A stretch of DNA of 62,131 nucleotides from Aureimonas ureilytica DSM 18598 = NBRC 106430 (GTDB lineage Bacteria; Pseudomonadota; Alphaproteobacteria; Rhizobiales; Rhizobiaceae). Position numbers and translations under genes: made by a program. The stretch is taken from positions 1 to 62,131 of the forward strand of contig NZ_ARQE01000014.1 of the NCBI RefSeq assembly GCF_000382705.1, read 5' to 3'. Under the pieces are notes generated by a model. The model saw nothing but the letters and a program-made list of their open reading frames with translations, had not been told where the DNA came from and did not search any database. Of this stretch, positions 8,535-32,504 are shown in pieces. Within the stretch, counting starts at the first letter, position 1. Each line of letters begins with the position of its first letter.

Positions 8535-8551
8535 GGACCTGACGCAGGTCC
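8535..8551. other. Perfect GGACCTG-ACG-CAGGTCC hairpin
   Basis: A 7-base perfect stem with a 3-base loop lies about 75 bases before the chemoreceptor start and 115 bases after the DUF7007 gene. There is no following T-run on either strand, so it is more likely an operator or transcript-processing structure than a simple terminator. Confidence 0.4.
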
Positions 8552-8664
8552 ACGAAAAGTATTTTGGTAAATATGATGTTAGTAAGCCTGCCAATCTTTA
8601 GGGTGCTATAATCGCCCCGAGTTGTGAACACAAAAAAGAGAGAGCCTAAGGTTCCTCCTTTCCG

Positions 8665-11963: not shown

Positions 11964-12207
11964 TGCCGTGCTCGCGTTCGAAGGCGTCAGCAGCGGCAAG
12001 CAAACCCACCTCGATGTCGGAGGGCATTGTATCGAGCGTAAAGGCACGTCGTGGATCGGGCTGCCCGGTGATCTCTTGGTAGTGGTCGATGCTCATGAGG
12101 ACAAACTTCGGCTTGCTGCGCCGGGTGATGAACACGGGCGCCTTGATGGCGGCCTCCGTGACCTCCCCGACCTGCTTGTTCAAATCGGCGGTGGTGAATG
12201 TTCGCAT
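11953..12207 (-). CDS. Phd/YefM-family antitoxin
   Basis: The 84-residue product starts MRTFTTADLNKQVGEVTEAA and continues with PVFITRRSKPKFVLMSIDHY. This is the Phd/YefM DNA-binding fold that represses its own operon and neutralises a toxin through its C-terminal tail. ATG 12207 has GGAGAA 7-12 bases upstream; an earlier start at 12234 would run through the operator-like repeat. The partner is the PemK-like N-terminal part of the downstream chimera, which overlaps by 11 bases. Confidence 0.88.
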   Translation of the reverse strand: MRTFTTADLNKQVGEVTEAAIKAPVFITRRSKPKFVLMSIDHYQEITGQPDPRRAFTLDTMPSDIEVGLLAAADAFEREHGNDD

Positions 12208-12219
12208 CGTCGTTCTCCG

Positions 12220-12254
12220 ATCCATGATATCCATATAGCATGGGTTTCATGGAT
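12220..12254. promoter_or_regulatory. Operator-like inverted repeat of the Phd/PemK operon
   Basis: ATCCATGA at 12220-12227 is repeated inverted as TCATGGAT at 12247-12254, and CATGG/CCATG half-sites lie between them. The site is 13-47 bases before the antitoxin start. Phd-family antitoxins bind such palindromes to autoregulate. Confidence 0.6.
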
Positions 12255-12281
12255 TTGTAGGAGAGGGCTTGTTGGCATCTC

Positions 12282-13067
12282 TCAGGCAACACGCTCGATG
12301 TCATCGATCGAACTACACGCCCAATTGCCGGACAGGCGGACCCGCACAGGTCGAGTGTCGGCCATCTGCGCCAGGCGCTCAATGGTCGCGAGCTCCTCAT
12401 CGCTGGCCTTGCCCAACACCTGGATATCGACCCAATGGCCGCTGCGCCCGACATGGCTGTCGCGAAGGCGATGGTTGGACGAGGTGTAGAAGCTCTCGTT
12501 GGGCTCAACGAGCCGGACCTGCGAGGTCAGGAACAGCAGGCCCGATCCGATGTTGCCGCAGAAGGTGAACTTGTCAGCAGGGAGGGTCTTCGGCCCCCCG
12601 CCGACCTTGGCACGACCAATCTGCCGGAACGCCTCGTCGAAGGTCGACGGGTTCAACGTAACGCGCGGAGTGATCGCGCGGTGAAAGCGCCAGGGCGGGC
12701 GCTCGGGATCAATGCAGCCGACATCGATCTGGTGGAACAGATCGAGGAGGTAGACGGGATCAGCCGGGTACGGACACTCCCGCCAGAGATCGCGCAGGAG
12801 CCGGCGCATATTGTCGCCGTGCTGCCAAAGGCGCCGGCGCGCCTCTCGCCATTTGGCGGCGCGTTCGTCGCGGCGCCGCTGCTGGGCGCGCGGCCAGCTC
12901 TCGTGCCGGCGCGCCATCTCGGTGTCGACGTCGTACTGAGTCTCGCGGATCAGCTCCGCGAACAGCGGCAGCTTCTCGCACTTCTGGCGCTGCGAGCGCA
13001 CGAAGGCCGCTCGCTTGCGCGGGGTCTCGGTATAGCCCTCGACGCGGGGCCAGCGTTTGAAGCGCAC
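12282..13067 (-). CDS. Hypothetical plasmid accessory protein
   Basis: The 261-residue protein has a basic, Arg-rich N-terminal half (residues 1-95, many RRR and WPR motifs, probably coiled) and a mixed C-terminal half containing FTFCGNIGSGLLFLTSQVRL and RDSHVGRSGHWVDIQVLG. No family was recognised. It lies 11 bases after the DUF6884-like gene in the same operon. The basic N-terminus would suit nucleic-acid binding, but that is inference. Confidence 0.6.
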   Translation of the reverse strand: MRFKRWPRVEGYTETPRKRAAFVRSQRQKCEKLPLFAELIRETQYDVDTEMARRHESWPRAQQRRRDERAAKWREARRRLWQHGDNMRRLLRDLWRECPYPADPVYLLDLFHQIDVGCIDPERPPWRFHRAITPRVTLNPSTFDEAFRQIGRAKVGGGPKTLPADKFTFCGNIGSGLLFLTSQVRLVEPNESFYTSSNHRLRDSHVGRSGHWVDIQVLGKASDEELATIERLAQMADTRPVRVRLSGNWACSSIDDIERVA

Positions 13068-13078
13068 GGGTGAGCCTC

Positions 13079-13702
13079 CTATCGCGTTTGGGGACGGGTC
13101 GGATCGGAGTGGAGCCAGCGGCGAAGATCGCGGCGCATGAAGCCGATCGGACCGTTGATCTCGGTGACGGTCGCATCGGCTGCGATGCAGCCCATCTCGC
13201 GGAAGCCAACGAGGAAGGCGCGCATCACCTCGAGATAGAGGGCGCCGCCGACCAAGGCGATGTCGCGCAGCGGCTCGCCGGCGGCATGATAGAGACCGGC
13301 GATCTCGACGCCGGGATGGGCGCCCACGGTGTCGGGCATGGAAGCGAGGCGCGGGCGCGGCCAGCGGGTCGTCATCCCACCGGCGATCATAGCGTCGGCC
13401 AGATCACGAGTCAGCCGCGCATCGTAGTCGGCGATCGGCGTCGACGCAGATCGGAATCCGTAATGCGCGGACAGGAAGGCGACCTGGGCAAGGGTTCCGT
13501 TTGGATCGGCGGTGCGCAGCGTCTGCCAGAGCGGGCCGTCGTAGCGCTCGATCGCCGGCATCCTGGCGCCATCCGGGCGCTTGGTGGCCGAACAGCTAAT
13601 GAGGACCAGGCGCGAGGAGCGCTTGGCTCGCTTGACCGGCTGCCGGGTCAGAACCCTGTCGAGCAGGGGCAGGTCCCATTTAAGCAGGGCGCCGGCGCTC
13701 AT
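13079..13702 (-). CDS. DUF6884/YaaA-like protein
   Basis: The 207-residue product contains LVLISCSATKR at about residue 32 and AFLSAHYGF at about 75, then DIALVGGALYLEVMRAFL. This is the pattern of the DUF6884 group, distant relatives of YaaA and of base-modifying transglycosylase accessory proteins. Related proteins occur in mobile elements, some near DNA-modification genes. The reaction is unknown. Its start overlaps the previous stop by ATGA, so it is coupled to the upstream gene. Confidence 0.6.
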   Translation of the reverse strand: MSAGALLKWDLPLLDRVLTRQPVKRAKRSSRLVLISCSATKRPDGARMPAIERYDGPLWQTLRTADPNGTLAQVAFLSAHYGFRSASTPIADYDARLTRDLADAMIAGGMTTRWPRPRLASMPDTVGAHPGVEIAGLYHAAGEPLRDIALVGGALYLEVMRAFLVGFREMGCIAADATVTEINGPIGFMRRDLRRWLHSDPTRPQTR

Positions 13703-14780: not shown

Positions 14781-15686
14781 TCACGCTGCCAGCGCCTCGG
14801 GCTTTGCAGCCCGGTCGAGTATCCAGTCGGACGCTTTGGTTGCCAATGAAGCGGCCTGGAAAATCGCCTTGCTGTCGCCACGCAGCACCTCCAGCCAGTT
14901 GCCGATATAGTCGGCATGGCGCACTGTGGGCACGATGTTGTGGGCAGCGCAAAGGTAGGCCGCCGCGATCTCGGCCACGAGCTCCTCGCGCGCGTATTTC
15001 TCGGTGCCGAACCGGTCGAACTCGCGGTTCAAACGGTGCTTAGCGCCCGTCGAATGACCGAGCTCATGGAAAGCTGTCCTGTACCAGTTGATGGGGTCGG
15101 TATAAGCCGCCATCAGCGGGATCGCGATCACGTCGTCGGCGGGACGATAGAACGCCTTGTCTGGGTGATTGATGAAGCGAACGCCGGTGGCGGCGATGGT
15201 GCGATCGGCGGCCTCGACGCGCGGCAGGTCGCGATCGGGGTCGATGTCGGGCGCCTCGATGCCGGTGATAGCCGCGTCCAGCCCATCGCACTGCGCGACG
15301 TTGAAGACCGTGTAGGCCTTCAAGAACGGCACGACGGATGCATCGCGGCCTTCCTCGGCGGCGCGCACCTTCTCACCCTTGGGCGTGTAGGTGCCGGCGC
15401 GCACGATCTGCGTGCCCTTCTCGCCCCGGCGCACATGGCCGCCGGCCTCAACCGCTTGCGGGAAGGTGAGCCAGCGCTGCGTGGGGAAGCCCTGTTCCGA
15501 GCCGTGCAGCCACAGAAGCAGGACGTTGATGCCGGAATAGGTGTTGCCGGTGGTGGCGTTGGCCGGGAAGGAGAACCCTGCCTTACCAACTCCCGACTTC
15601 CAGGGTTTGGTCCAGGGCAGAATGCCGCTTTCGAGGTCGCGAATGATCTTGGCGGTCACGGTGTCGTAGATCGAGGCGCGGTCCAT
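14781..15686 (-). CDS. ardC: ArdC-type antirestriction protein (ssDNA-binding domain plus zincin)
   Basis: The 301-residue protein has the ArdC N-terminal domain at residues 1-125 (YDTVTAKIIRDLESGILPWT, FPANATTGNTYSGINVLLLW) and a C-terminal metallopeptidase-like domain with HELGH at about residue 207 followed by a downstream ELVAEIAAAYLC glutamate motif. ArdC proteins enter recipients with conjugating DNA and protect it from restriction. The zinc ligands appear intact. ATG 15686 (MDRASIYDTV) fits the family start better than an upstream ATG at 15737. It is the first gene of the minus-strand accessory operon. No relaxase or mating-pair gene is present in the window. Confidence 0.9.
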   Translation of the reverse strand: MDRASIYDTVTAKIIRDLESGILPWTKPWKSGVGKAGFSFPANATTGNTYSGINVLLLWLHGSEQGFPTQRWLTFPQAVEAGGHVRRGEKGTQIVRAGTYTPKGEKVRAAEEGRDASVVPFLKAYTVFNVAQCDGLDAAITGIEAPDIDPDRDLPRVEAADRTIAATGVRFINHPDKAFYRPADDVIAIPLMAAYTDPINWYRTAFHELGHSTGAKHRLNREFDRFGTEKYAREELVAEIAAAYLCAAHNIVPTVRHADYIGNWLEVLRGDSKAIFQAASLATKASDWILDRAAKPEALAA

Positions 15687-15737
15687 GTCGAAGATCCTTT
15701 GACGGGCCGGGAGGCGCTGTGCCTCTCTCTCACTCAA

Positions 15738-15753: not shown

Positions 15754-16137
15754 TTCCCTGACTTTCCCTCTGTCGCGCAGACAGGCAGGCAGGATTACAA
15801 CCGTCGCAATTCTCAGGCCATCACGGTTAATTCGATGTACAACCCAAGCCAACATCGAGCACTAAAATCTCAGGGGCAAAACCCACGCGCCCATTGGTTT
15901 TGTGTGTGGCTTGATGTAACAAGCCTCAACCGTGGTGTGTGCTAAGGCAACATAATCGTGTGCTCTGGGTCGGGCACCATACTTGATCATGACAGCGTTC
16001 CGAGCGATTGCGTTTTACGCTCATTTGTCTTTAGATTACGCGAGGACCATTCCAGCGAGACGTGCTAAGACCGCGACCAATTGGGATGTTGCCAACTCAC
16101 GGATACGATAAGATTGTCATCGGGGGACTTCGGGATT
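15754..16137. other. Intergenic region between ardC and the XRE gene
   Basis: These 384 bases hold no supported gene. They separate divergent genes and so must contain promoters for both, but no confident -35/-10 pair or operator was identified. A short tandem CAGG repeat lies near 15,779-15,790. Confidence 0.4.
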
Positions 16138-16536
16138 GTGCTGGAATCGTCGGTGAACAAGCCGAAACAAGGTGGGTATGATCCGCTGGACATCCACATC
16201 GGGCAGCGCATTCGCGACACCCGATTGGCTCGCAATATGAAGCTCGAGACGTTGAGCGAGCGGCTCGGGATCATCAGTCAGCAGCAGCTTCAAAAATACG
16301 AGTCCGGAGCGAACCGCGTTTCGGGGTCGATGATGTTCCGGATCGCCTCCATCCTGGAGGTCCATCCCGGCCACTTCTTCTCGGGGCTGGTGGATCCCAG
16401 GACGAAGCAGAAGCTGCCTGAAGTCGGCCTTCAGGGCCATAAAATTCTCAGGCAGCTTGATGGCCTGGACCCGGATTTGGCAGAGATCCTCGAAAAGCTG
16501 GTTTCGAAGGTCAAACGCATTGGCAACAATCCCTAG
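16138..16536 (+). CDS. XRE-family regulator (first of a paralogous pair)
   Basis: The product is about 132 residues if GTG 16138 is used, with a helix-turn-helix at about residues 20-75 (IGQRIRDTRLARNMKLETLS, ISQQQLQKYESGANRV). It ends with a short helical tail. The start was chosen because VLESSVNK then lines up with MESSLKNK of the XRE protein encoded at 18,558-19,016. A TTG at 16081 is an alternative. This regulator type often represses neighbouring mobile-element genes. Its end overlaps the thermonuclease start by 17 bases. Confidence 0.8.
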   Translation: MLESSVNKPKQGGYDPLDIHIGQRIRDTRLARNMKLETLSERLGIISQQQLQKYESGANRVSGSMMFRIASILEVHPGHFFSGLVDPRTKQKLPEVGLQGHKILRQLDGLDPDLAEILEKLVSKVKRIGNNP

Positions 16537-18557: not shown

Positions 18558-19016
18558 TCAGGGCCTGGGGAGCGATGCTCCTAGAGCGCGCCCGAAGGGG
18601 GCGTCCCTTCCCTTTTTTGCCTTCTGCGGACCTTTGAAGTCTTGATGAAGATCGTTCAAGGCCTCAACCAAGTAAGCGAGCTGCTGAGCCGTCTGCGGAA
18701 CTTGCGCCTGAAGACGCTTGATTTTGTGTTCCATGTCCGTTATTTCAGCCCTCTTTGTCCCATTTATGCCGTCAATTCCAGCCAAAAGACTATATACGTC
18801 GACTTCCAAAAACTGTGTGATCCGAACGAGCGTCGAAACGGAAGCTCTGTTTCGCCCAGTCTCATATTTTTGAACTTGCTGATAGCTGACTCCAAGCATT
18901 TCACCAAGGGATGTCAAGCTTATCCCGCGATGAACTCTGAGATTACGAAGATTTGCACCGAACATGACATCGTACGGGTCCAAGTCTGGTCTTTTGTTTT
19001 TCAAACTACTCTCCAT
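18558..19016 (-). CDS. XRE-family regulator (second of a paralogous pair)
   Basis: The 152-residue protein has an HTH at about residues 17-70 (GANLRNLRVHRGISLTSLGE, SYQQVQKYETGRNRAS) and a helical tail (residues 88-125, KIKRLQAQVPQTAQQLAYLV) that could dimerise. ATG 19016 was chosen over GTG 19019. It is a clear paralogue of the XRE protein at 16,138. The two face inwards and flank the thermonuclease, HNH and unknown genes. Confidence 0.85.
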   Translation of the reverse strand: MESSLKNKRPDLDPYDVMFGANLRNLRVHRGISLTSLGEMLGVSYQQVQKYETGRNRASVSTLVRITQFLEVDVYSLLAGIDGINGTKRAEITDMEHKIKRLQAQVPQTAQQLAYLVEALNDLHQDFKGPQKAKKGRDAPFGRALGASLPRP

Positions 19017-19479
19017 CACATTTCCGCCTGCACACGACTCAGCTTCTATATCTATTCAAACCCTAAGTGGCCTGGAACGCTGTATACCTAATCCGGATCT
19101 TCATTTAAGCTCGAATTCTTTCCTGTAGCCCATCCGCCGTGGCACCGGAAGTTGCAAAACGAACCGTCAATGCACTGGCATTCCAGGGGTTCGAACGCGT
19201 CACATCAATTTAACGTTCTCAATTTGATACCTGAACCTTACAACTTTGCATCTGCACATTTGTTGAACAGCGTTCGGATTAATTTAGAAGCGCTCCACGG
19301 GTGAGAATGTCTCTGAAACGACCGTTTTTGCGACAAATATCCGCTGTCAACGAGTGGGGCCGTCCTGCAGCGCCATCACGGCAGCAAAGCGCCCAGTCCT
19401 GTCGACCAGACGAAACTCTCGACGTCCCGAAAGCGGACGTCACGCCAGCGCAGCGAACGTTCAGGATCGGTCCGTTCTA
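19017..19479. other. Intergenic region left of the IS5 element
   Basis: No gene is supported. The first 250 bases are AT-richer than the surroundings and probably contain the promoter of the minus-strand XRE gene. Near 19,425 there is CCCGAAAGCGGACGT, a short piece related to the dispersed repeat family. GGTTCGAAC at 19,188-19,196 resembles a T-loop but has no surrounding tRNA structure. Confidence 0.4.
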
Positions 19480-20315
19480 GGCAGTGTCCCCATAACAGGG
19501 TTCACGGTTTTGGGTTGATCTGATTCAATCTCCTGAGAAGGAGGTTGGCATGCGTCGCCATGAATTGACGGATCAGGAGTGGTCGGTGATCGAACCGCTA
19601 TTGACCAAGAACAGCCGCGGCGTGCATCGCGTGGACGACCGGCGGGTAATCAACGGCATCCTGTGGCGGTTTCGGACCGGGTCGTCCTGGCGGGACGTGC
19701 CTGAGCGCTACGGCCCTCGCACCACGTTCTACAACCGCTTCACGCGCTGGCGCGCCGCCGGCGTCTGGGATTGGCTGCTGGAGGCTGTGAGCCGAGCCTA
19801 CGACGGCGACATCGTGATGATCGACAGTTCCTGCGTCCGCGTCCATCAGCACGGCGCCGTGGGCAAAAAACGGGGCCTGCCGATCCTTGCATGGGACGTT
19901 CACGCGGCGGCCTAACGACCAAGATCCATGCCCTGGTGGATGCCAAGGGCCGGCCCGTGCGTCTCGAACTCACCGCCGGGCAAGCTGGCGATGCGCCCAT
20001 GGCGGCGAGGTTGCTCGACACCGTCGCGCCCGGTGCGACAGTCATCGCAGACAAGGCCTACGACACGGACGGTATCCGGTCCTTCAAGGCTGCGCGAGGT
20101 GCCTGGGCGAACATCCCGCCCCGCTCGATGCGCAAGGCCACCTTCGCCTTCAGCCGCTGGGTCTATCGCCAGCGCAACCTCGTCGAGCGCTTCTTCAACC
20201 GCCTCAAGCAGTAGCTGTCTGGCTACCCGCTACGACCGACGGCCCGACAACTTCCTCGCCGCCATCAAGCTCGCAGCCGTCCGCATCTGGATCAATGCGT
20301 AATGAGCCCGCTCCC
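19480..20315 (+). mobile_element. IS5-family element (IS427-like group), degenerate
   Basis: The 836-base element starts GGCAGTGTCCCCAT and ends ATGAGCCCGCTCCC. The inverted ends agree at 9 of 14 positions. TA flanks both sides (19478-19479 and 20316-20317, within CTAG on both sides), as expected for a TA target duplication. Its size and two-frame transposase fit the IS427-like group. Damage near the 3' end of the transposase suggests it cannot move by itself. Confidence 0.75.
19550..20302 (+). pseudogene. IS5-family transposase with programmed frameshift and broken C-terminus
   Basis: The first frame (19550-19915) gives HELTDQEWSVIEPLL, FRTGSSWRDVPERYGP and the first catalytic Asp in IVMIDSSCVRVHQHG. 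A slippery AAA AAA C at 19865-19871 allows a -1 shift into the frame that continues GRSRGGLTTKIHALVD, with the second Asp in VIADKAYDTDGI and the Glu in RNLVERFFNRLKQ. A TAG then follows at 20212-20214, and the rest (ATRYDRRPDNFLAAIKLAAV) is in a third frame. The first shift is the normal expression mechanism of this group; the last is damage. Confidence 0.85.
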
Positions 20316-20437
20316 TAGGTGATCTCTTTGCCGTTTGCCCATCAAACGTGGCCTCCGCATATGTGGAGATAACAACTCGCTCGGTCTCGGAGAGGCACCC
20401 TCAAAACGGACCATTATGATATCGTCCATCTCCCCGC

Positions 20438-20688: not shown

Positions 20689-23094
20689 CTAAGCTGGCAG
20701 GAAACCTAGGCTGTAGACCTGAGGCTGTAGCTTTAGAGTTAGAGCGAGATAGGCCTGGTTGAAGGAGGCGAAGTCCGTCACCTCGTTTACCTCGTTGGCA
20801 ATCAACGACCGCCTGACCTGATACCAGCCGGCATCCGGCCGCCCAAGCTTGAATTCGTCAATGATCTTTTTACCAAACTTCTGCCCATGGAAGAGGCGGA
20901 ACAGCTTCAGTCCCTCGTCCATCACCAGCTTTGCCTCTGGCGTCAGCTTCAGTTTGCTCATGTACTTCGACATGAAATCAGACTCGAATCGTCCGGTCTT
21001 CAGTCCGACCTGCTTCTCGGTGAAGGGGATGAAATGGTTGATCAGGGACCAGTCTTTCCCACCGTACTTGAGCTTGTCGGCGCCGGCGGAGAGGTTACTG
21101 CTGTTGAATAAGGTCCATACAAGGCAGTCGGCCTTCCAAGAATCGCTCAGCAGATGATTCGACTGTAGGAACTGATCACGGTCGTTGAGCCAAGTCGGAC
21201 GGATCAAACGGCGGACGGCGAACATGACTGCGACCTGCCACATGTTGGCTTCGGTGATGAAGAAGCCACGTCCGCTTCCGAATCCCGAGGACATGATCAT
21301 AGTCAACTTCCCGGCCTGCTGGAGATCGTTGCCGGCGCAATTGAACCAGCCGAGCGCTCCGTCGGCCCAGGCACGACCCCGGATATCCCCCGTCGATGTG
21401 GCAGGCTCTACCGCACCCTTGAGCGGGATTGCCGGCGTTTTGTTGGAACGTGGACGAACCGGCCATGTCGAAAGGAGGAGATGGTTCTCGATATTCGTGA
21501 AAATCTTATCGCCGATGTAGACAGCATCCTTGTCTAGAACATCGACCTCCACCTCGTCTATTCTCTCCGGCTTCGAGGTGTCCCAGATCAAAAACCCAAT
21601 CGGGAAGTCACCCTTTAGGCCGTCAAAGGCGCGACTATGAACGACAAAGCCGCCAAGATACTTCGCTAGCCAAACCGTTCGAAAATCTTCAAAAGCTTGG
21701 GAGTTTATGTACTTGAGTGTTCCGAATGTGGCGACGGTGGCGACAGGAATTTCCTTATGAACGCGAGCAAGGAATTGCGTGAACAACTCGTTGCTTGCCT
21801 TGCCATAACCTTCCATTCCGGCCACCGCGAACCTCGACCTAGCGACGTGCTTTTTGCTACGGTCTATGCCTCGGCTAACGGCGTTCTCAGAGCTGGTCGC
21901 CTCGGCATATGGTGGATTAATCAGTACCAAGACTTTCTTGGCGCCCTTCTTCTTCATCCGTGCATCGGCAATCGCGGTCCGCAGTGTGATCGGCAACTTT
22001 CCCGAAAGGGAATAGTCGATGTTGCCGAACTCGTTCACGTCGTCATTTAGGTAATCGTATTGAAATATCGTCGCGCCGACGCATGTCTGAGAAGCCCGCA
22101 TGAGGTCAATATCGGCCTGATCGATCGTCGACATGAAGACGTTGCGATAATTTGAGTGCTTAACTTCGAGATTGCCGACGCCGCAACACATGTCCCATAC
22201 GATATAACGCTTCTGCCAATTCTTGCCGAGGACGTCGGTTAGCTCGGCATACGCCTTATCTACGACATGCAGTGGTGTATAATAGGCGCCCTTGAATTCC
22301 CGCTCTATGATAGGAAGTAGGCTGTCCCTGCGCTCGAGTAGATAGTGTCTGTACTCCTCTTCGGGAGGTCTGTGATAGATCGCCCAGAAGTTCCGATAGC
22401 CGCGCAGGCTGTTGAGCTCGTAAGTGGTCCCGTTCAGGACGAAGACTGGCTTGTCGCCATCATGGAGCAGCTTGGCTGGAAGGTCTTTCATGGCTGATTT
22501 GGTGCCATCGTGCATGATGTCGGCGAAGAAAAGCAGCGCGTAGTCCACCCGCGAGACGCCATCCAGCTCCTCGCCAATCATCGAGATCCACTTGTCGAAA
22601 ACCTGTCGCAGGTTGTCCGGTGTGATGGGTGTTCGGATGATTTTTCCGGCGCTGATAGCTTGCCGGATAGCAGCGATAAAGTCCTTCTCGTAATGATCGA
22701 GCTGGTATACGACGAAGTGGGTCTCAATGTATGGTGCGATCTGCACCGCCAGAGACTTGTCAATCTTCGATCCCGACTTTGGCCATTTGATAAGCTTGTC
22801 GTCGAGGATTGGCAGTGCCTTCGCCGTTTCCATGACTGCCGCCTTCTCTGTATCAATGACACAGAGAAAGGGAGGTATCTGCTCGCCCAGCTTGCGAGCG
22901 CTGCGGACGTAGAACAACAGCTGGGCGAACATTGTCACTGGCGCTGTTGGGGAGCCCTTCGCCTCAAACCAAACCTCGTCGGTACGGATGTCGACAAGGG
23001 TTTTATTGTAGCTCTTTAGTCCTATTGCTTTGACGTAGGCGTCCTTGACGTCCTCCTCTGTCTTTGCCTTCGAGAGGTCCTGCTTCAGTGTCAT
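20689..23094 (-). CDS. N6-adenine DNA methyltransferase with possible N-terminal nuclease motif (type IIG/L-like)
   Basis: The 801-residue protein has methyltransferase motif I (WDMCCGVGNLE, about residue 302) for S-adenosylmethionine and motif IV NPPY (VLINPPYAEA, about residue 393), the signature of N6-adenine methylation. The roughly 270 residues before it start with a short module containing TDEVWFEAKG (Asp39, Glu44, Lys46), which fits a D-ExK nuclease site. The roughly 350 residues after NPPY would hold target recognition. This layout resembles single-chain type IIG/IIL restriction-modification enzymes. It is the third gene after the OLD nuclease and UvrD helicase genes, with a 52-base gap, and probably shares their transcript. 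ATG 23094 was preferred to a TTG four codons upstream. Confidence 0.82.
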   Translation of the reverse strand: MTLKQDLSKAKTEEDVKDAYVKAIGLKSYNKTLVDIRTDEVWFEAKGSPTAPVTMFAQLLFYVRSARKLGEQIPPFLCVIDTEKAAVMETAKALPILDDKLIKWPKSGSKIDKSLAVQIAPYIETHFVVYQLDHYEKDFIAAIRQAISAGKIIRTPITPDNLRQVFDKWISMIGEELDGVSRVDYALLFFADIMHDGTKSAMKDLPAKLLHDGDKPVFVLNGTTYELNSLRGYRNFWAIYHRPPEEEYRHYLLERRDSLLPIIEREFKGAYYTPLHVVDKAYAELTDVLGKNWQKRYIVWDMCCGVGNLEVKHSNYRNVFMSTIDQADIDLMRASQTCVGATIFQYDYLNDDVNEFGNIDYSLSGKLPITLRTAIADARMKKKGAKKVLVLINPPYAEATSSENAVSRGIDRSKKHVARSRFAVAGMEGYGKASNELFTQFLARVHKEIPVATVATFGTLKYINSQAFEDFRTVWLAKYLGGFVVHSRAFDGLKGDFPIGFLIWDTSKPERIDEVEVDVLDKDAVYIGDKIFTNIENHLLLSTWPVRPRSNKTPAIPLKGAVEPATSTGDIRGRAWADGALGWFNCAGNDLQQAGKLTMIMSSGFGSGRGFFITEANMWQVAVMFAVRRLIRPTWLNDRDQFLQSNHLLSDSWKADCLVWTLFNSSNLSAGADKLKYGGKDWSLINHFIPFTEKQVGLKTGRFESDFMSKYMSKLKLTPEAKLVMDEGLKLFRLFHGQKFGKKIIDEFKLGRPDAGWYQVRRSLIANEVNEVTDFASFNQAYLALTLKLQPQVYSLGFLPA

Positions 23095-23146
23095 AAGTCT
23101 AGGCAATCCTGCTGAGTTAGGTTCTTGTCCGGAGCGTCGGCTTAAG

Positions 23147-25090
23147 TTATCCGAGCGCGGCCTCCGTTAGGATTGCCTCGTCGGGAAATATATGCAGCGC
23201 GCGCACGCACTCCTCGGCAGTCGAAGGATTGTCACTGAAATAGACGACGACTAGGTCCTTAAGTGCCCTCGTGCAACAAACATAGAAAAGGCGTCTCGTT
23301 CTATCGATTGAGGTCGGCTTACCCTCAGCCATGTTCTCCAGATCGCGCTTGGACGGGGGCTTTACTCCGAAATACTTGTCATAGGAGAACTGCGCATGGG
23401 TTCCTTCATCATCGTCGAGGACAACAAGCACGCGCTCGAACTCAGCACCTTTAATCCCTTGCTGCGTCGAGAAGGGCGACGATTGCCTGATGTATGTCCT
23501 GTACCCGCGGAACTGGCGAGCTGGGCATGCTAGGTAGCGGTCCATGGCATCTATCTCTAGCGAAGCCGACTCCTCGTCCTCGCCTTCTTCTCTCTGCTCC
23601 TCGTCCTCTGAGGCGTCGTCATTCTTAGGAAGCGCTTCCCCAATAAACGCTGAGATACGTGGATCGAGAGTTGTGAGGTCTTTCTGCGCCAGATGGACGA
23701 GGACGTCTCGAACTGTAGCCCTGCCGTCAGCCATCATAGCTACGAGTTCGGCAACCGCAGTTCGCAACGAGGCGAGTAGGTCCGCGACTTTAGACTTGGA
23801 CAGCGCCTCACGCTGGAGCCTAGGGCACGACCTGCGCAGGAGCGATATCGCCTCAAATTCGTTACCGACCTCCATCGCCTCAACGACGGGCAGGACGAAA
23901 TTGACGAAGGGCTTAAGTGGCCATGACGTTGAATCGAGGAAGCCGTCGCCGAACGCGCTCGGCGCCTTATCGTTCATAGCGGCATAGAGTTGGCCAAAAC
24001 CCAAACGGTTGGCCGCCATTCGATGCACGATGACCAACAATTTGAAGTCAGCATCGGGGCCGTCGGCCCAGCAGGGATCGGCCTCCTCGTTCGAAACCAG
24101 ACGTCGGACAGCGGCAATTCTCTCATCCCGATTGCCATCAGCTGGCAGCACGAAGATGCGCGCCGAGCCTTTGACAGGAAGGGGCGCTCCGCCGGCAGGG
24201 TTCTGCACCACGCGGCCTCCAGTCTGCACGAGGTCGTCACCGTCGCGCCGAATGGCGTTCGCCACGGCTAGCACTTGCGTTGGGCACCGGAAGTTCTCTT
24301 CCTTGGCAATCGTTTCCCAGCCATCCTCAAGCGGGATGTCACCGATGCCAGTAGCATATATGCGTTGCATGGGGTCGCCGAAGAAGCCGAGGCAGAAATC
24401 GGCACCAGCTTGCGCTGCCACCGCTTTGAGAGCCCCCACGACGATCGGCTGGGTATCCTGGCTCTCGTCTACGAAGACAATCGGGAACTGCTGTGAAACC
24501 AGGGTCCGGAACAGTGGGCGCTCCACCATAAAATAGGCGGCCATGCGGATTATGTCGTCATGACCTAGTACGCCACGAGAATAATCGCTACCAGTCCCGT
24601 AGTTGAACGCCCCCACCTTCTCGACCATAGGGATCGAGGCGGTATACCGATCGAGGTCGTTGCGGTTCTTAACGCGCGTGCGCGGCTGGACACGCGGTCC
24701 GAAATTGGCGGCCGTCGCCTCGAGCTCCGCGATGCGTTCATTGATCCGACGGATCACCCAGGCTTTGATGTCCGTCTGGAAGGACCGCGTGATCGACCAC
24801 AGAAAGCTATGGATGGTCGAGACGTGCAGCAGCGGATTGTTGCCTACATCTGCCCAAATTTCGGCGGCTGCTACCTCCGTATAGGTGATGCAGGCGATCC
24901 GCCTGCGGCTGCGTTTGAGCTCCTCCCCTCGCATATGGATGGCAGTGGCCAGCGCCTTGACCAATGACGTGGTCTTGCCTGAGCCGGCTCCCGCCACCAT
25001 GACGAAACCACGCTTCTCCTTGCCACCAAGGGAGGCCTTGACGCGCTTGTCGGCCTCGGTGTCCGGCTTGTCGATCCGCCCACCGCTCAT
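23147..25090 (-). CDS. UvrD/Rep-type helicase, Gabija GajB-like
   Basis: The 647-residue superfamily-1 helicase has all core motifs: VAGAGSGKTTSLVK (Walker A, residues 32-45), ITYTEVAAAEI (Ia), IVFVDESQDTQ (Walker B, about 206), FFGDPMQRIY (III), STQQGIKGAEFERVLVVLDD (V) and RRLFYVCCTRALKDL (VI). An acidic insertion (EDEEQREEGEDEE) lies near residue 490. The start overlaps the OLD gene stop by ATGA. Tandem OLD-UvrD pairs define class 2 OLD systems, including Gabija, in which the helicase senses DNA ends and works with the nuclease. It is longer than typical GajB (about 500 residues). Confidence 0.9.
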   Translation of the reverse strand: MSGGRIDKPDTEADKRVKASLGGKEKRGFVMVAGAGSGKTTSLVKALATAIHMRGEELKRSRRRIACITYTEVAAAEIWADVGNNPLLHVSTIHSFLWSITRSFQTDIKAWVIRRINERIAELEATAANFGPRVQPRTRVKNRNDLDRYTASIPMVEKVGAFNYGTGSDYSRGVLGHDDIIRMAAYFMVERPLFRTLVSQQFPIVFVDESQDTQPIVVGALKAVAAQAGADFCLGFFGDPMQRIYATGIGDIPLEDGWETIAKEENFRCPTQVLAVANAIRRDGDDLVQTGGRVVQNPAGGAPLPVKGSARIFVLPADGNRDERIAAVRRLVSNEEADPCWADGPDADFKLLVIVHRMAANRLGFGQLYAAMNDKAPSAFGDGFLDSTSWPLKPFVNFVLPVVEAMEVGNEFEAISLLRRSCPRLQREALSKSKVADLLASLRTAVAELVAMMADGRATVRDVLVHLAQKDLTTLDPRISAFIGEALPKNDDASEDEEQREEGEDEESASLEIDAMDRYLACPARQFRGYRTYIRQSSPFSTQQGIKGAEFERVLVVLDDDEGTHAQFSYDKYFGVKPPSKRDLENMAEGKPTSIDRTRRLFYVCCTRALKDLVVVYFSDNPSTAEECVRALHIFPDEAILTEAALG

Positions 25091-27351
25091 TCAGCTTCGC
25101 CCTCGACGGCCTCTACCGCACCGACGACGGCCTCGGCCTCCTGTACCACCTCGAGATCAACCTGTTCGGCCAACCAGCTGAGACCATCCCTGATGTACTT
25201 CGGAGTCGTCCAGCCCTCCGTGCCGGAGGCCATGATTTCCAGCGCGAATTTTGTCTTGTCGAAGTGCTTGCCACCAACCCGCTTGTGTAGGCCTTCCGCA
25301 AGTGCCGCGACGTCTTCAGGAGCCTTCTTGAGCTTAAGGCCCACGTCCTTGCGCTCGATGGCTTGGCACCATTCAGCGTTCTCGAGACCAAAGGCCTCTT
25401 CGAGCGTGCGACCGCACACTGAGACCGTCGCGCCACCCCAGGCGACGTCGGTGGCAACCTGATACGCCACCAGAACCTTCGCCGGTTCGGAGCCGGTGAT
25501 ATGAGCTGTTTTCTCGGCTGCGTCCGCTTTCAGCAGATCGCCTATGAGCCGCTTCTTGGGTAGCCACTTGATCAAAGTCTGGTTTGAAGTTTCAGCATTT
25601 TCGACCGAGGGAAGGCAGGCCTTGCCGTATCGCTTCATTGCTGGCTTTCCCTCCTCAGCGTCAGGAACCTCGAACTCGACCTCCTCGTCCTCCTCCGCAT
25701 CCTCGTCGATTGAATCTGGGATCGGCTTGGCGGTCACGCTGTCGATGTCCGTCACAATAAGTGTTGTGATGCCAAGAAACTCAATCAGCTCTTTGAATCG
25801 ATGACCAAAAGCGCCGCTGACTTCGAGGATGCAAAGCGAAGCGGACCGAAGCGTCGGCGCTTCTCGCTCGATCATGATGGGCATGAGGAGCCGTTCTACG
25901 TTGCCTTCCACCAAGATGGCGGCATCTGCAAAGAACAGGTCGCAATGAGTCAGCTTCAGATAGCGCTGGAGGAAATGCCGGTCCCTAGGCGCCTCTCCAG
26001 CCTGAAATGCTGAGAGATTGAGGACAAGCGTAGTCTGCTCCCCATCAGCATGCCTCCGGAAATATCGGATCGGAGCGAAGCCTCGCTCGTAGAGGATGTG
26101 CGGCGAATGGGTCGTCATCACAACTTGGCTGTTGTAGGCGCTCTCTTCGTCCTCTTTGACAAGGCTTAGCACGTTCCGGATGAAGACCTGCTGCAATTGG
26201 GCATGCAGGTGCGCCTCAGGCTCCTCAATGAAGATCAGGTGTAGCGGTGCGCGATTCTCCTCCTCGGCCTTCCACTTCCCGTGAATATCGAGTATCTCCA
26301 CCACCATGTAGATCAAGTTCTTAAAACCCAAGCCATTGTAGCTATCGGGCAACCGAGCGGCGTCGTCTCCATCGCCGAGCACGTAATGGATCTTGGCGTC
26401 CTGGCTCATTACCGTTGCAGGGTTGAGCGCTGACTTGATCTCTAGCCGTGGATTGTTAAGGCCGGGATAGCCGAGAGTGGCAATACGGTCGAGCGTGTCC
26501 TTGAAGACGTCTTTGAGGTGGTCGTTGAGCCCCGCTTCGGATTTGAAAAGCGCCCTGAGGGCCGTGTGGTCTTCCTCCCGTTGGCTGAGGTTGCGTTCGT
26601 AGAACCGGCTTAGCCGGCGGGACAGGTCCTCGGACCGGCCCGAACCGCCTTCGGTTTTCGACGCCGGATCGGCGAGGTGGCGTTGGGCGTTAAGACAATC
26701 GACTCTAACAAGCGACCTGAGTACAGCAGCCCCGCTTACCTCGCCAGCGAGGGGAGCTGGGCTGTAGCCGATTTCCTCCACCAAAGCGGAATCGAACCGC
26801 GCGCGATCCAATACGCTGTAGCGGAGCTCGAACTCGAGGTGAAGTTCCTTCTCGAGGTAATCGGTGAGCGATTTCGGCCAGGGCTTGTAGTCGCCAGCCT
26901 CGTTCGGCAGCGCAGCAGCCTTTTCCGTCACCGCGGCCTTGCGCTCCCTGAAACGCTTCAGCAGTTCTGATGACGAGCAAGCAGCCAGTTCCACTCGCAT
27001 GCCGACCATGCTGCCTTCCCATGCCGTGCTCGGCAGTATCGGCATCACAAGGTACAGATCCTCTGCGTTCACCTTGAACCATAAATCCAGCACGATGGAT
27101 GGGATTTCGGCAGTGGCGTCGCCGATAGGATCAGCCACCTCAAGAGCGTTAAGCTGCTTCCATGTGTGTGAACTGAAGTCAAACAGCGTGAACCGGTCCT
27201 TCGAGCCAGACAGGAACATCATTATGGCTTGAGTAGCCGATGTTTTGCCGCTGTTGTTGGAGCCGACAAAGATCGAAATGTCCGATCCCAGCTCAATATG
27301 CGCGTCGCGAAGCCGACGAAAATTCTTCAAACGATACGAATGCAGATACAT
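25087..27351 (-). CDS. OLD-family ATPase with TOPRIM nuclease domain, Gabija GajA-like
   Basis: The 754-residue protein has an ABC-type ATPase (Walker A GSNNSGKT at 30-37, Walker B LIFIEEPEAHLHAQ at about 374, and MTTHSPHILYERG) followed by a TOPRIM domain (AILVEGNVERLL at about 480 and LIVTDIDS at about 533 provide the metal-binding Glu and DxD). An acidic linker (DEDAEEDEEVEFEVPDAEE) separates this from a C-terminal region. OLD proteins cut DNA, and GajA nicks phage DNA when nucleotide levels fall. Coupling to a UvrD-like helicase gene makes this a class 2 OLD/Gabija-like operon. It is some 170 residues longer than classical GajA, so it may be a separate branch. Confidence 0.9.
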   Translation of the reverse strand: MYLHSYRLKNFRRLRDAHIELGSDISIFVGSNNSGKTSATQAIMMFLSGSKDRFTLFDFSSHTWKQLNALEVADPIGDATAEIPSIVLDLWFKVNAEDLYLVMPILPSTAWEGSMVGMRVELAACSSSELLKRFRERKAAVTEKAAALPNEAGDYKPWPKSLTDYLEKELHLEFELRYSVLDRARFDSALVEEIGYSPAPLAGEVSGAAVLRSLVRVDCLNAQRHLADPASKTEGGSGRSEDLSRRLSRFYERNLSQREEDHTALRALFKSEAGLNDHLKDVFKDTLDRIATLGYPGLNNPRLEIKSALNPATVMSQDAKIHYVLGDGDDAARLPDSYNGLGFKNLIYMVVEILDIHGKWKAEEENRAPLHLIFIEEPEAHLHAQLQQVFIRNVLSLVKEDEESAYNSQVVMTTHSPHILYERGFAPIRYFRRHADGEQTTLVLNLSAFQAGEAPRDRHFLQRYLKLTHCDLFFADAAILVEGNVERLLMPIMIEREAPTLRSASLCILEVSGAFGHRFKELIEFLGITTLIVTDIDSVTAKPIPDSIDEDAEEDEEVEFEVPDAEEGKPAMKRYGKACLPSVENAETSNQTLIKWLPKKRLIGDLLKADAAEKTAHITGSEPAKVLVAYQVATDVAWGGATVSVCGRTLEEAFGLENAEWCQAIERKDVGLKLKKAPEDVAALAEGLHKRVGGKHFDKTKFALEIMASGTEGWTTPKYIRDGLSWLAEQVDLEVVQEAEAVVGAVEAVEGEAE

Positions 27352-27611
27352 AGTCGAGGACTCAAATGTAATGCGTGCGTGGCGATACCGTTACAATGCA
27401 TTAAAGCAGACCCATCCTCTTCTCCAATCACAACTAACGAATGTGCGGCATATGGTCGCTACAAGCTGTGTCAGCGGATTGCTGCTTCCCTAATGGCTGG
27501 GGTTCGAGAAGTGTCGAAGGCGCCAAGTCGGTATCGTGCCCCTCCTCCAGTTGAGTTTTAGATCGTGTGGGCTGTAGCACGCTTGCTGAAGTCGCGTTAA
27601 CGTTGTGCGTT

Positions 27612-28865
27612 ATGCGCACGCCTCTCACTTTCGTTCACGCCGCTGACATCCATCTCGACAGTCCACTGCATGGTCTTTCGCGCAAGGATGAGGCTTTCTC
27701 GCAGCTCGTACGCGGGGCGACGCGAACTGCGTTTGCTAGGGTCGTTGACCTCGCGATCGATGAAGGCGCTGCCTTCGTGGTGATCGCAGGCGATCTCTAT
27801 GACGGCGCCTGGAAGGATCAGTCTACCGGCCAGTTTGCGGTCGCGCAGCTCGCTCGGCTGACGCGTGCCGGTATCCGTGCGGTCATCTCCTTTGGCAACC
27901 ATGACGCCGAAAGCCGCGTCACCCGACATCTGACGCCGCCCGAAGGTGTCTACATGTTGGCGAATGCAAGGTGCGAGACTGTGCTTTTCGATGATCTCGG
28001 CGTTGCGATCCACGGTCGCTCCTACAAGCAGGCTGCCACCACGGAGAATATCGCGGCCACCTACTGCCCACCAGTGAAGGGGATGCTCAACGTCGCCATG
28101 CTCCATACTGCGCTCGATGGGCACGAGGGCCACGCGAATTACGCGCCCTGCTCACTCGCTGAGCTTCAGGCGGCGGGACACGACTACTGGGCGCTTGGCC
28201 ACGTCCACGACCATGCCGTGCGCTCGACGCATCCACATGTGGTCTTCGCGGGCAACACGCAAGGACGGCACGTTCGCGAAACCGGTCCGAAAGGCGTGGT
28301 CGTCGTGCGCGCCGAAGATGGAGCGATCAGCACCGTCGAGCACCGGGCGACCGACGAAATCCGTTGGGCAAATCTGCGCGTCGATGCAAGCTGTGCACGT
28401 GATACCCTCGAAGCCCTCACCGCGATACAAGCCGAACTTCGCCCGGTCGTAGCGGCAGCTGAGGGGCGCCCAGTCGCGGCGCGTGTTGCCGTTGTGGCCG
28501 ATGCAGCACTGGCAATGCGACTTAATGCTGATCCGTCCTTCTTCGAAACGGAAGTGCGGGGTCACGCCGCAGGCATCTCCGACACGCTCTGGATCGAACG
28601 GGTGAAGGTCGCGGCGCGTGCAGAAGCGGGCACCTACGGTCTGCCGCCGGAACTTCGCGATCTCCTCGACCAGGCGATGACCGACCCGGACTGTCGCCGC
28701 GCGATCGAGGCCGCCATCGCGCCGCTCGTCGGAAAGCTTCCGACGGAAATTGGGGACGCTGAGACCGCACCGCTCATCGCCTTTGCAAGGGCCGGCAACG
28801 GCGAAGCTATTGTCGAGGCAGCGCGCAGCCTCATTGAAGCGCGGCTCGCGGGAGACAAGGATTGA
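27612..28865 (+). CDS. SbcD/YhaO-like metallophosphoesterase (DNA exonuclease subunit)
   Basis: The 417-residue protein carries the calcineurin-like phosphoesterase motifs of the Mre11/SbcD family: FVHAADIHLDSPL, VVIAGDLYDG, SFGNHDAES, AMLHT and ALGHVHDH. These bind two metal ions for exonuclease and endonuclease action on DNA ends. ATG 27612 starts MRTPLTFVHAADIH; a longer frame from 27567 adds an unlikely 15 residues. Its TGA overlaps the next ATG by one base, so the two are coupled. It is divergent from the OLD gene, with 260 bases between. Confidence 0.9.
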   Translation: MRTPLTFVHAADIHLDSPLHGLSRKDEAFSQLVRGATRTAFARVVDLAIDEGAAFVVIAGDLYDGAWKDQSTGQFAVAQLARLTRAGIRAVISFGNHDAESRVTRHLTPPEGVYMLANARCETVLFDDLGVAIHGRSYKQAATTENIAATYCPPVKGMLNVAMLHTALDGHEGHANYAPCSLAELQAAGHDYWALGHVHDHAVRSTHPHVVFAGNTQGRHVRETGPKGVVVVRAEDGAISTVEHRATDEIRWANLRVDASCARDTLEALTAIQAELRPVVAAAEGRPVAARVAVVADAALAMRLNADPSFFETEVRGHAAGISDTLWIERVKVAARAEAGTYGLPPELRDLLDQAMTDPDCRRAIEAAIAPLVGKLPTEIGDAETAPLIAFARAGNGEAIVEAARSLIEARLAGDKD

Positions 28866-31800
28866 TGCGCTTCCGGAGGCTCGAACTCATCCGCTACGGG
28901 GGCTTTGCCGATCGCGTCTTCGACTTCGGTGAGGGCGGGCCGTATCTGCATTTGGTGGTGGGACCAAACGAGGCCGGCAAATCCACTGCGCTTGCAGCGA
29001 TCGGCGATCTTCTGTTCGGAATCCCCGGTCAAAGCAGCCAGAACTGGCACTACGACTATTCCCAGCTTAGGCTGCGCGCGCTAATCGAGCACGACGGGGA
29101 AACGATCGACGTAACGCGGCGCAAGGGCAACCGGGATACGCTGTTGCAAGCTGACGGAACGCCCTTCAAGGCAGACCCACTAGCCAAGCTTCTCGGCGGT
29201 TTGGACCGGACGGCGTTCGAGCGGATGTTCGGTCTCGACCACACGAAACTTCGCCGCGGCGGCGAGGGGATCCTCAGCGGCCGCGATGACGCTGCGCGGA
29301 TCACGCTCGAAGCAGGTACCGGCCTTTCGCATATCGGAACCGAGTTGAAGAAGCTCGAAGAGGCCGCTGTCGCGCTGTTCAAGCCGGCGGGTCAGAACCC
29401 GCCCGTCAACCGCCTGCTGCGCGAGCGCACCGAGGCGTTGGGTCGGGTCCGCCAATCTTCCATTGGCGATGCCGACTGGATGAAGGTACGCCAACGCCGG
29501 ACTGATGCCGAAACGCGGCGCCGGGCGCTGATCGAGGAAGCGGAAGCCATGAGTCGCGAGCAGGCGCGGCTTGATCGCATTGCGAGGGCGCGCGCCCCCT
29601 TCGCCCGGCTGAAGGAAGCGCGACGCGAACTGGACGAGCTGCGCGATGTTCCGGACATGGCCCCGGACGCCGGCGAACGCTTCGCCTTGGCGAAGGCCGA
29701 GCGCGGCACGCTCGCTGCGCTGGCGACGCGGGTCGAGGCAGATATCGCGCGTGTCGCGGCTGTGATCGATGCCATTGCAGTGCCGGGTCCTATCCTTGCC
29801 GAGCGCGCAGCGATCGAAGCGTTAGATGAGCGCCGCCCGGTGATCGCCACGGCAGCCATGGACCTAGAGCGCCGACGCGCCGAACTGGAGCGTATAGACG
29901 CGCGGATTACTAGCGCACGCGCCGAGGCGCACCTTAGGGACGGAGTTGCGCTCCCGACGGTCGGCTGGCGCCGACGTGCCGTCACGCATTTGGAAGCGCG
30001 CCGCGATCTGCGCCAGCGCGAAGCAGTTGCAGGCAAGGAGCGAGCGAGAATTGCGGTCGCTCGCGCGGAGGGCGCGGCCGAACTCGCTCGACTAGGCGAT
30101 TTCGTCGATCCGGGAGCAGTGAACGAGGCCTTGGCCACTTTGCCGATGGACGTTGAGACAAGGCTCGGACAGGCGGAGAAGGATGCCGCGCGGAGGCACA
30201 CACGCGCAAACAGCCAGCTGGAAGGCCTTCGTCCATGGGCGGGCACCGCGGCGGTGCTGGCGAGGCTGGAGCTGCCGAGCGCCGCGGAAGCTGGTGAAGC
30301 GCAGAGAACGATCGATACGGCTCGAAACGAGGCTTTCGCTGCGCGCAAGGAAGCAGAGGCTGCAGAAACGACCGCGATCCGAGAGAAGAGCAAGCTGGCG
30401 ACGATCACAGCAGGCGATACGCTGCCGACGCCAGATGCCATTGCGGCACAGCGTGCCTCCCGCGACCGGGTGGTCGATGCTGTGCGTGAACGTCTCGCGT
30501 CCGAGCGCCGCGCCGACGACGAGGCTACCGGATACGCGCTGAGGGAGGCGGTCGCCGAGGCCGACCGCCTCGCAGATCGACGGGACGGTGAAGCCACGCG
30601 TATCGCCGAACACGGGCTCGCCGTCGTGGGCCTCGCCGAAGCCGAGGAATTGCGCGCTGCAGCGGAGAAGCGACGGAGCGTGTGGGCCGCCGAGTTGGAG
30701 CGGGCGGAGGCTGAGTGGGCCGCTCGCCTCGGCGCGCTGGGGTTCGAGAGACCGATCATTGCCGCCGATTTTGCAAACTGGCTGATGCAGCGGACGGCGG
30801 CACTCGAAGCCGGGCGCGAAGCGACGGAAGCGCTCGAGACACTGCAAGAGTTGCGAGCCTCGATCGAGCGCTCTCGAAGCCGGATCCGGCAAGCGCTGGC
30901 AGATGCCGGTGGCGGCGGAGTTGCGCAGGATGATCCTGGGCTCATTGAACGAGCTCGCCGTTTTGTCGCTGTTTCGAGCGAGAGCGCCACCGCGCGCGAA
31001 CGCATCGCTCGGGAGATGGTGGTGATCGATCGCGCTGCGGCGGAACTTGAACTGGAAGAGAAAGGCATCGACGAGGAGCGTCTGGCTCTCGATGCAGAAA
31101 TCGGGGCCCTCGCGGAGGAGGCGGGTCTTGCGGAGACGAGCGGCGAAGTCGCGCTGGTGGATGTTCTGGCTGCGCTCGAAGGGATCGCCGAGGAGACCGC
31201 GACACGTGAAGGCGTGGCTCGCCAGATCGTCGGCATCGAGCGCGACAGGATCGCGTTCGAGGCGGATCTCGACACCGTGCTCGGCGCGCTTAGGCAAGTC
31301 CGGAAAGGCAGGGCGGTCGACCAGGTGCAGACGCTTGCCGCTGGGCTCGATGATGCTATTCGCGACACCGAAGAGCGGGACACGCAAAGCGGTGAACGCA
31401 CGCGGCTCACAGAGGAGTTCGCGCAGACGAAGGCCCAACTCGACGCCGCCGAAATTGTGATCGGCGTGCTGATGCAAGCAGCGGGGGTCGCCGACGAAAT
31501 GGCACTTGATCAAACGATCGCAAAGGCCGATCGCCGGGCCCTCCTGCGAACGGTCGAGCGCGAAGCGCTCATGGACCTTGCCGGTGCTGACAACAACGCA
31601 GGACTCGACGCGCTGGCTGTCGAGATCGCCGAACTGTCCGCCGAGGAAGAAGCGGCGGCCCGCAGCCGCATCCAGGATCGCCGACTGGATCTTGCCAGCG
31701 AGCGCGAAGAGGTTGGTCGTGCCCTCAACGCTGTAGAAGAAGAAATGGAGCGTGCCGCTAGCGACAGCGCCGCCGCCAACGCGCAGCAAGAGGCGACGGA

Positions 31801-32338
31801 AGTGGCCCATCAGCTTGCCGAAGTGGCGGAGGAACATGTGCGGACGGCTTCGGCTGCCGCCCTCTTGCGGTGGATGCTCGATCGCCATCGGGCCACCAAT
31901 CAGGCCCCGCTCATTGCGCGGGCTGGTGCCCTTTTTGCCAAAATCACCGGCGGAGCCTTCGCAGGTCTCGGTGTTGGCTACGGCGCGGACGACAAACCAG
32001 TCATCCTCGCCCGACGCGCAGATGGTGCTGAAGTCGGCGTCGAGGCCCTGAGCGAAGGCACGCGCGATCAGCTGTACCTGGCGCTGCGGCTTGGTTCGAT
32101 CGAAGGCCGGTCCGGCGTAGGCACGCTGCCAGTGATCTGCGACGATCTCCTAATCACTGCCGACGACGCACGAGCCGCCTGCCTGTTCGAAGTCCTTGCC
32201 GCCGCTGCGGCGCATACTCAGGTCATTGTGTTCAGCCATCACGAGCATCTGATTGAGGTTGCCCGAAAAGCGCTCGGTGCGGGAGGCTTCCAGCTGCAAC
32301 GCATCGTATCCAACCTCGATACGACTGCGGCCGCGTAG
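28865..32338 (+). CDS. SbcC/YhaN-like SMC-type ATPase
   Basis: The 1157-residue protein has a Walker A near residue 37 (VVGPNEAGKSTALAAIG), about 850 residues rich in Ala, Glu and Arg that form long coiled coils, and a C-terminal half-ATPase with ALSEGTRDQLYLALRL (ABC signature), VICDDLLI (Walker B) and VIVFSHHEHLIEVA. This is the Rad50/SbcC/YhaN pattern. It should partner the YhaO-like nuclease to process DNA ends, blocked ends or hairpins. The N-terminal MRFRRLELIRYGGFADRVFD matches YhaN-type rather than classical SbcC starts. Such pairs occur both as housekeeping and as accessory systems. Confidence 0.9.
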   Translation: MRFRRLELIRYGGFADRVFDFGEGGPYLHLVVGPNEAGKSTALAAIGDLLFGIPGQSSQNWHYDYSQLRLRALIEHDGETIDVTRRKGNRDTLLQADGTPFKADPLAKLLGGLDRTAFERMFGLDHTKLRRGGEGILSGRDDAARITLEAGTGLSHIGTELKKLEEAAVALFKPAGQNPPVNRLLRERTEALGRVRQSSIGDADWMKVRQRRTDAETRRRALIEEAEAMSREQARLDRIARARAPFARLKEARRELDELRDVPDMAPDAGERFALAKAERGTLAALATRVEADIARVAAVIDAIAVPGPILAERAAIEALDERRPVIATAAMDLERRRAELERIDARITSARAEAHLRDGVALPTVGWRRRAVTHLEARRDLRQREAVAGKERARIAVARAEGAAELARLGDFVDPGAVNEALATLPMDVETRLGQAEKDAARRHTRANSQLEGLRPWAGTAAVLARLELPSAAEAGEAQRTIDTARNEAFAARKEAEAAETTAIREKSKLATITAGDTLPTPDAIAAQRASRDRVVDAVRERLASERRADDEATGYALREAVAEADRLADRRDGEATRIAEHGLAVVGLAEAEELRAAAEKRRSVWAAELERAEAEWAARLGALGFERPIIAADFANWLMQRTAALEAGREATEALETLQELRASIERSRSRIRQALADAGGGGVAQDDPGLIERARRFVAVSSESATARERIAREMVVIDRAAAELELEEKGIDEERLALDAEIGALAEEAGLAETSGEVALVDVLAALEGIAEETATREGVARQIVGIERDRIAFEADLDTVLGALRQVRKGRAVDQVQTLAAGLDDAIRDTEERDTQSGERTRLTEEFAQTKAQLDAAEIVIGVLMQAAGVADEMALDQTIAKADRRALLRTVEREALMDLAGADNNAGLDALAVEIAELSAEEEAAARSRIQDRRLDLASEREEVGRALNAVEEEMERAASDSAAANAQQEATEVAHQLAEVAEEHVRTASAAALLRWMLDRHRATNQAPLIARAGALFAKITGGAFAGLGVGYGADDKPVILARRADGAEVGVEALSEGTRDQLYLALRLGSIEGRSGVGTLPVICDDLLITADDARAACLFEVLAAAAAHTQVIVFSHHEHLIEVARKALGAGGFQLQRIVSNLDTTAAA

Positions 32339-32504
32339 GACCCTGCTGATACCAGCTCAGAGTTTTCCGCAAAGACGGTCGTTTCTGCGACAGATGCACA
32401 TCGGCCAACTGTTGCTTCACCTAAAATGGTTTGGCTCCATCCGGTCCTCTAAAGGCATACTCAACGCGGACCGTTGGGCAGCCTTACGATGCGCCGGCGT
32501 TCGG

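Follow-up and report, generated by a model that had tools for sequence, protein, structure and literature searches.

The stretch of DNA analysed here, called the window, covers 62,131 nucleotides of contig NZ_ARQE01000014.1 of Aureimonas ureilytica DSM 18598 = NBRC 106430. Its minus strand carries three closely packed genes. The first, gajA (25087..27351), starts with ATG and encodes a 754 aa OLD-family ABC ATPase with a TOPRIM nuclease domain, assigned by Pfam, PADLOC and alignment; the second, gajB (23147..25090), also starts with ATG and encodes a 647 aa UvrD-like SF1 helicase, assigned by Pfam and PADLOC. The third (20689..23094) encodes an 801 aa candidate type IIG-like single-chain restriction-modification enzyme, assigned from weak profiles, motifs and predicted models. 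The gajA and gajB frames overlap by 4 bp (ATGA), and 52 bp (23095..23146) separate the gajB stop codon from the start of the methylase gene. The open frame of the latter has its mechanical start at a TTG (23106), giving 805 aa, and measures 801 aa from the ATG. ORF and domain analysis agrees with the initial annotation of the region on gene coordinates, identities, ATGA overlap and 52-base spacing. In a consensus scan, the 52-bp gap showed no terminator-like site; the region as a whole gave six terminator-like sites (mean of 6.7 in shuffled sequence) and no promoter-like site (shuffled mean 3.6), and with counts near or below the shuffled means the scan says little on co-transcription. Given their common strand and the short gap, gajA, gajB and the enzyme gene may share a transcript, so that some cooperation of the three is conceivable.

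Several other features surround this run. Divergent from gajA, on the plus strand (27567..32338), lies a pair of genes for an SbcD-like phosphoesterase (Metallophos) and an SbcC/YhaN-like ATPase (AAA_27). Just downstream of the enzyme gene, transposase open frames occupy two frames of the plus strand at 19550-20318, with DDE_Tnp_1 in 19771-20214. An ArdC-type antirestriction protein (ArdcN + MPTase-PolyVal) is encoded at 14781-15737 on the minus strand, with HTH regulators in its vicinity at 16081-16536 and 18558-19019.

The first two proteins have the features of a Gabija pair: an OLD-type ATPase with TOPRIM domain, a complete TOPRIM site and an adjoining gene for a UvrD-like helicase. GajA matches AAA_15 (E 3e-47) and OLD-like_TOPRIM (E 3e-16) in Pfam, and GajB matches UvrD-helicase (E 8e-18). 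Matches to the PADLOC Gabija profiles run from end to end, both for GajA (PDLC00095, E 8e-269, residues 1-738 on profile positions 1-740 of 752) and for GajB (PDLC00143, E 2.5e-232, residues 5-643 on positions 4-630 of 632), in line with the earlier identification of OLD plus UvrD as the Gabija (class 2 OLD) pair. Among 13 aligned sequences, the GajA Walker A motif N33-S-G-K-T and residues E482, G513, D535 and D537 are invariant. The TOPRIM active site of B. cereus GajA is constituted of Glu, Gly and DxD, as described in PMC10781630; on our reading of the motif, the four window residues would be their counterparts. A length-variable acidic insert follows the DxD at residues about 543-575 (window about 25625-25725) and is found by alignment in several long-form GajA proteins.

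Both proteins had been described as 150-170 residues longer than usual. This holds relative to the PDB chains of B. cereus (GajA 578 and GajB 499 residues), which the window proteins, like the sampled relatives, exceed by ~150-175 residues each, but not relative to the best-matching PADLOC profiles (752 and 632 positions long) or the related loci. GajA frames, measured from stop to stop in 46 related loci, range from 658 to 841 aa (the shortest is truncated where its contig stops), and 80 viral loci comprise both short forms (near 566-590) and long forms (near 700-800). Unusual length as the sign of a new type was therefore rejected; the extra length of GajA and GajB is normal for the long-form Gabija branch (PDLC00095/PDLC00143). 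With this branch the pair shares its two-gene order, 4-bp overlap, domains, catalytic motifs and length, and it differs by the restriction-modification gene placed after gajB. Judged by its genes, gajA-gajB is thus a complete and ordinary long-form Gabija.

The third protein is scarcely recognised by sequence libraries. Its weak profile matches are PADLOC MTase_II (E 4e-4) and TIGR02987 (E 0.0035, below the cut-off of that profile), and among 55 members of its family Pfam gives weak matches to MTS in nine and to N6_Mtase in two. An AdoMet motif, D301-x-x-x-G305-x-G307-N308, precedes N393-P-P-Y, in the gamma order of an N6-adenine methylase. The chain is made of a nuclease domain at about residues 1-150, a methylase core from about 270 and a C-terminal region (about 540-800) that probably serves in target recognition. 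In an alignment of 94 rows (93 relatives and the window), NPPY is kept in all 94, D35 in 92, E44 in 89 and K46 in 90. With these three residues kept across the family, the N-terminal D35/E44-x-K46 site is real. The full-length model (pLDDT 82) finds DrdV, BpuSI and MmeI as structural matches, and also M.TaqI, with low whole-model Foldseek TM-scores of 0.20-0.31 on the model. For the model of the N-terminal domain (pLDDT 93), BpuSI and DrdV rank first, with no Foldseek match at E<=0.001 for this domain alone.

The features of type IIG membership are present, namely nuclease and methylase in one chain, an N-terminal PD-(D/E)XK domain and N6-adenine methylase motifs in gamma order. The same architecture is seen in BpuSI, DrdV and MmeI, where an N-terminal PD-(D/E)XK-like nuclease, an N6-adenine methylase core with NPPY and a C-terminal region follow one another in a single chain. 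The window enzyme, of 801 aa, is shorter than the BpuSI (870) and DrdV (about 1014) chains and, unlike these type IIG/IIL enzymes, it has neither a sequence match in the PDB nor a Pfam family at E<=0.1. That it could instead be an orphan methyltransferase, regulatory or protective, with a dead N-terminal nuclease agrees with the libraries, which give it only a methyltransferase name, and weakly; this is very unlikely and was rejected, the nuclease residues being kept in 92, 89 and 90 of the 94 rows and the N-terminal domain resembling the nuclease domains of BpuSI and DrdV. On motifs and predicted fold, the third protein is a putative type IIG-like single-chain restriction-modification enzyme. 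The earlier proposal of a type IIG/L-like N6-adenine methylase with a possible D-ExK site is thereby strengthened, with the site conserved and the fold like that of BpuSI and DrdV. By analogy with its family, the enzyme would bind a specific site and N6-methylate adenine in host DNA, and its PD-(D/E)XK domain would cut unmodified incoming DNA.

The initial annotation saw in the three genes a possible new Gabija-related system and proposed looking for the same gene order in unrelated genomes. Starting from Gabija, 46 other GajA loci were gathered, some on plasmids and others in genome samples taken at genus, order, class and phylum level; for plasmids, 40 of the 387 GajA-matching records were listed, and ten of the 12 records with GajA above 50% identity were fetched. 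An alignment scan of viral contigs with GajA gave 84 relatives, many of them distant, of which 80 were kept, and a single-protein scan of the same kind of contigs with GajA gave no relative. GajA also matches six phage records among 50,697. GajB adjoins GajA in 45 of the 46 loci, the exception (L136) stopping at a contig end, and in 74 of the 80 viral-contig loci. By profile search, the enzyme family is absent from all 46 loci and from all 80 viral-contig loci, i.e. 0/126. In 38 of 47 Gabija loci, the window included and the viral loci excluded, at least 2.5 kb of sequence follows gajB. Within this sample, OLD-UvrD homologues never adjoin the methylase, the outcome that the annotation itself had named as refuting its proposal.

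The search from the enzyme side leads to the same picture. Its relatives comprise 14 plasmid records (eight fetched), the best 80 of 326 genome loci and eight viral contigs. By their record titles, the 80 genome loci, where the relative stands as a single gene, come from Pseudomonadota, Bacteroidetes, Sulfurovum, Leptospiraceae and others. The 50,697 phage records hold no match to the enzyme, and one of 198 other genomes of the window's family has a relative. The analysis adds a widespread type IIG-like family, scarcely recognised by Pfam and PADLOC profiles. Around about 97 enzyme loci, tblastn with the window GajA and GajB found none beyond the window and its own-genome copy (L001), and profile search found no true GajA or GajB. 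Upstream sequence reaches 2.5 kb or more at 78 of the 97 loci analysed, a total that includes two contigs twice; many stop at contig ends and the best 80 of 326 were kept, so a rare linkage could escape. Within three genes on each side, no neighbour family occurs in more than five of the 97 loci. On two complete Fluviibacter plasmids (9,965 and 16,356 bp), enzyme relatives stand as single genes, with no gajAB by annotation or tblastn. Collectively, the absence of the trio from 126 GajA loci and from the surroundings of the enzyme relatives argues against a new three-gene Gabija-related system.

Four candidates for Gabija near enzyme relatives were set aside. L009 (weak match, E 1e-7) is annotated as PcrA, and L052 (weak match, E 1e-5) has a short frame. 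The frame in L084, of 476 residues (7664-9094) and upstream of an enzyme relative, is also short and has a weak GajA-profile match (E 5e-8). In L007, an Acinetobacter plasmid, a protein with a toprim-containing annotation precedes the enzyme by 175 bp; this protein shows sub-threshold Toprim matches and no PADLOC or GajA-profile match. Enzyme relatives in L005, L006, L007 and L012 are carried by ~10-16 kb plasmids of Fluviibacter, Acinetobacter and Lactobacillus.

How the run arose is suggested by a locus in a same-genus genome (L145). There, gajB-gajA-sbcD-sbcC is colinear with the window; 9249 bp align to window positions 23147-32384 with 91.4% DNA identity, and the enzyme gene is absent. 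The match breaks off exactly where the gajB stop codon ends (23147); beyond it, the two sequences are unrelated (score of 16 against a shuffled mean of 17.4). A Rhizobium plasmid with the second-closest pair found (L117, GajA 82.5%) also lacks the enzyme. The three-gene run is thus probably a local event in the lineage of the window, in which the enzyme gene was acquired beside the gajB stop. Such a gain is likelier than a loss in the relative, given that none of the 126 other loci examined carries the enzyme. The SbcD/SbcC-like pair was also considered as a second Gabija association and dropped, being found beside gajAB in only two of 46 related loci, L145 and L134. In L134, where the gajAB sequence is divergent, this pair follows 58 bp on.

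A dedicated system had been envisaged, in which marks set by the methylase would protect self DNA and leave only unmodified DNA open to the GajAB complex. The common strand, the 52-bp gap and the intact methylase residues would suit it, as would the fact that the basis of self/non-self discrimination by Gabija is called unknown in PMC12407980. The same paper ties Gabija in Pseudomonas to linear DNA ends without RecBCD activity and proposes this activity as the self signal; in its main text, the string 'methyl' occurs zero times, and methylation is not invoked. The proposal of RecBCD activity as self signal speaks against marking by the methylase, as do the absence of the enzyme from 126 other GajA-family loci, the absence of GajAB near enzyme relatives and the closest gajAB relatives (L145 and L117), which lack the enzyme. 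Moreover, the enzyme has a nuclease domain of its own and so would need no partner to restrict. For want of recurrence in the sample the self-marking system was rejected, and it now appears extremely improbable. Of the roles that the initial annotation offered for the methylase, the one that survives is its fallback of a separate restriction enzyme, in keeping with this nuclease domain and with relatives that stand without GajAB.

The preferred reading, to which a probability of about 0.86 is given, is therefore an ordinary Gabija followed directly by a type IIG-like gene that is independent of it, without a conserved three-gene system. It relies on the observed gene identities, catalytic residues, predicted fold, breakpoint and lack of recurrence of the linkage in the sample. 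With an independent enzyme and a standard Gabija, the locus looks like a common type of defence cluster rather than a new immune system, and a candidate new system drops out, since both its parts, the Gabija and the restriction enzyme, are of known kinds. Each part would function on its own: the enzyme as outlined above, and GajA nuclease with GajB helicase as a Gabija complex acting on invading DNA, by analogy with the family. In the host genome, AddA scores above its cut-off and no RecB above its cut-off was found, so that AddAB would stand in for RecBCD in this host.

Two independent systems could also cooperate. The enzyme could cut phage DNA, and Gabija could handle the ends if a phage blocks AddAB/RecBCD-type repair, or back up the enzyme against an anti-restriction protein. 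Favourable to this is that gajAB lies in or beside unrelated restriction-modification systems elsewhere. A type III Mod-(RhuM-like)-Res operon is followed by gajAB after about 52 bp in L127; type I HsdR-HsdS-HsdM precedes gajA in L154, with HsdM ending 2 bp before it, and a type I operon in L136 has HsdR 134 bp before gajA (left out of the count of tight junctions). The L161 methyltransferase, of 1385 aa and closest to the PADLOC profiles DrmMI and then IIG, overlaps gajA by 4 bp. Type I systems are divergent from gajAB in L128, L129 and L167, and in the viral contig L225 gajA has an HsdM-like gene ahead of it on its own strand. For OLD modules next to BREX and related systems, a role as a layer of backup effectors has been described (PMC12839542), and these modules resemble the window in that an OLD-TOPRIM nuclease adjoins a methyltransferase-based restriction system; in the window, by contrast, it is a single type IIG-like gene that follows Gabija, and the pairing does not recur in the sample. 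The reported action of Gabija on DNA ends lacking RecBCD activity (PMC12407980) would also fit cooperation.

The counts speak against it. A methyltransferase lies within eight genes in nine of 46 Gabija loci against one of 20 Shedu control loci (Fisher p=0.26), and tight same-strand junctions number 3/46 and 1/20 (p=1.0); this comparison is rough, as the Shedu loci are an order sample (20 of 23 matches fetched, some stopping at contig ends) and the Gabija loci come from plasmids and from genus, order, class and phylum. Lone methyltransferases on the opposite strand, without a restriction operon, account for two of the nine (L134 and L168). Neighbour candidates were called by motif and a small library; eight of the nine on the Gabija side are confirmed by profiles, and the ninth (L129) is counted through its HsdR, its HsdM being matched by the library only. 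Further methyltransferase-like genes in viral loci, of phage or host, were left out. Adjacency of Gabija and methyltransferases is thus not above control, and the general clustering of defence genes, which accounts for it equally well, fits. Given its other restriction-modification neighbours, the neighbourhood of Gabija may be not wholly accidental, but cooperation in the window is considered unlikely. Equally doubtful is the broader idea that Gabija is repeatedly recruited beside type I, III and IIG operons to work in sequence, with the enzyme making or sensing ends and Gabija finishing shielded molecules or taking over upon anti-restriction, the window being one instance. The several independent junctions recorded here between Gabija and unrelated restriction-modification systems would open such cooperation to testing, given the recent evidence that Gabija responds to DNA-end processing. 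On the Shedu side, L188 was counted, as its neighbour is of the MmeI family, and L175, with no Pfam match, was left out. This L188 neighbour (10812-13565) is a type IIG enzyme of 917 aa, and its gene has a 4-bp overlap with the beginning of the Shedu gene, which lies on the same strand.
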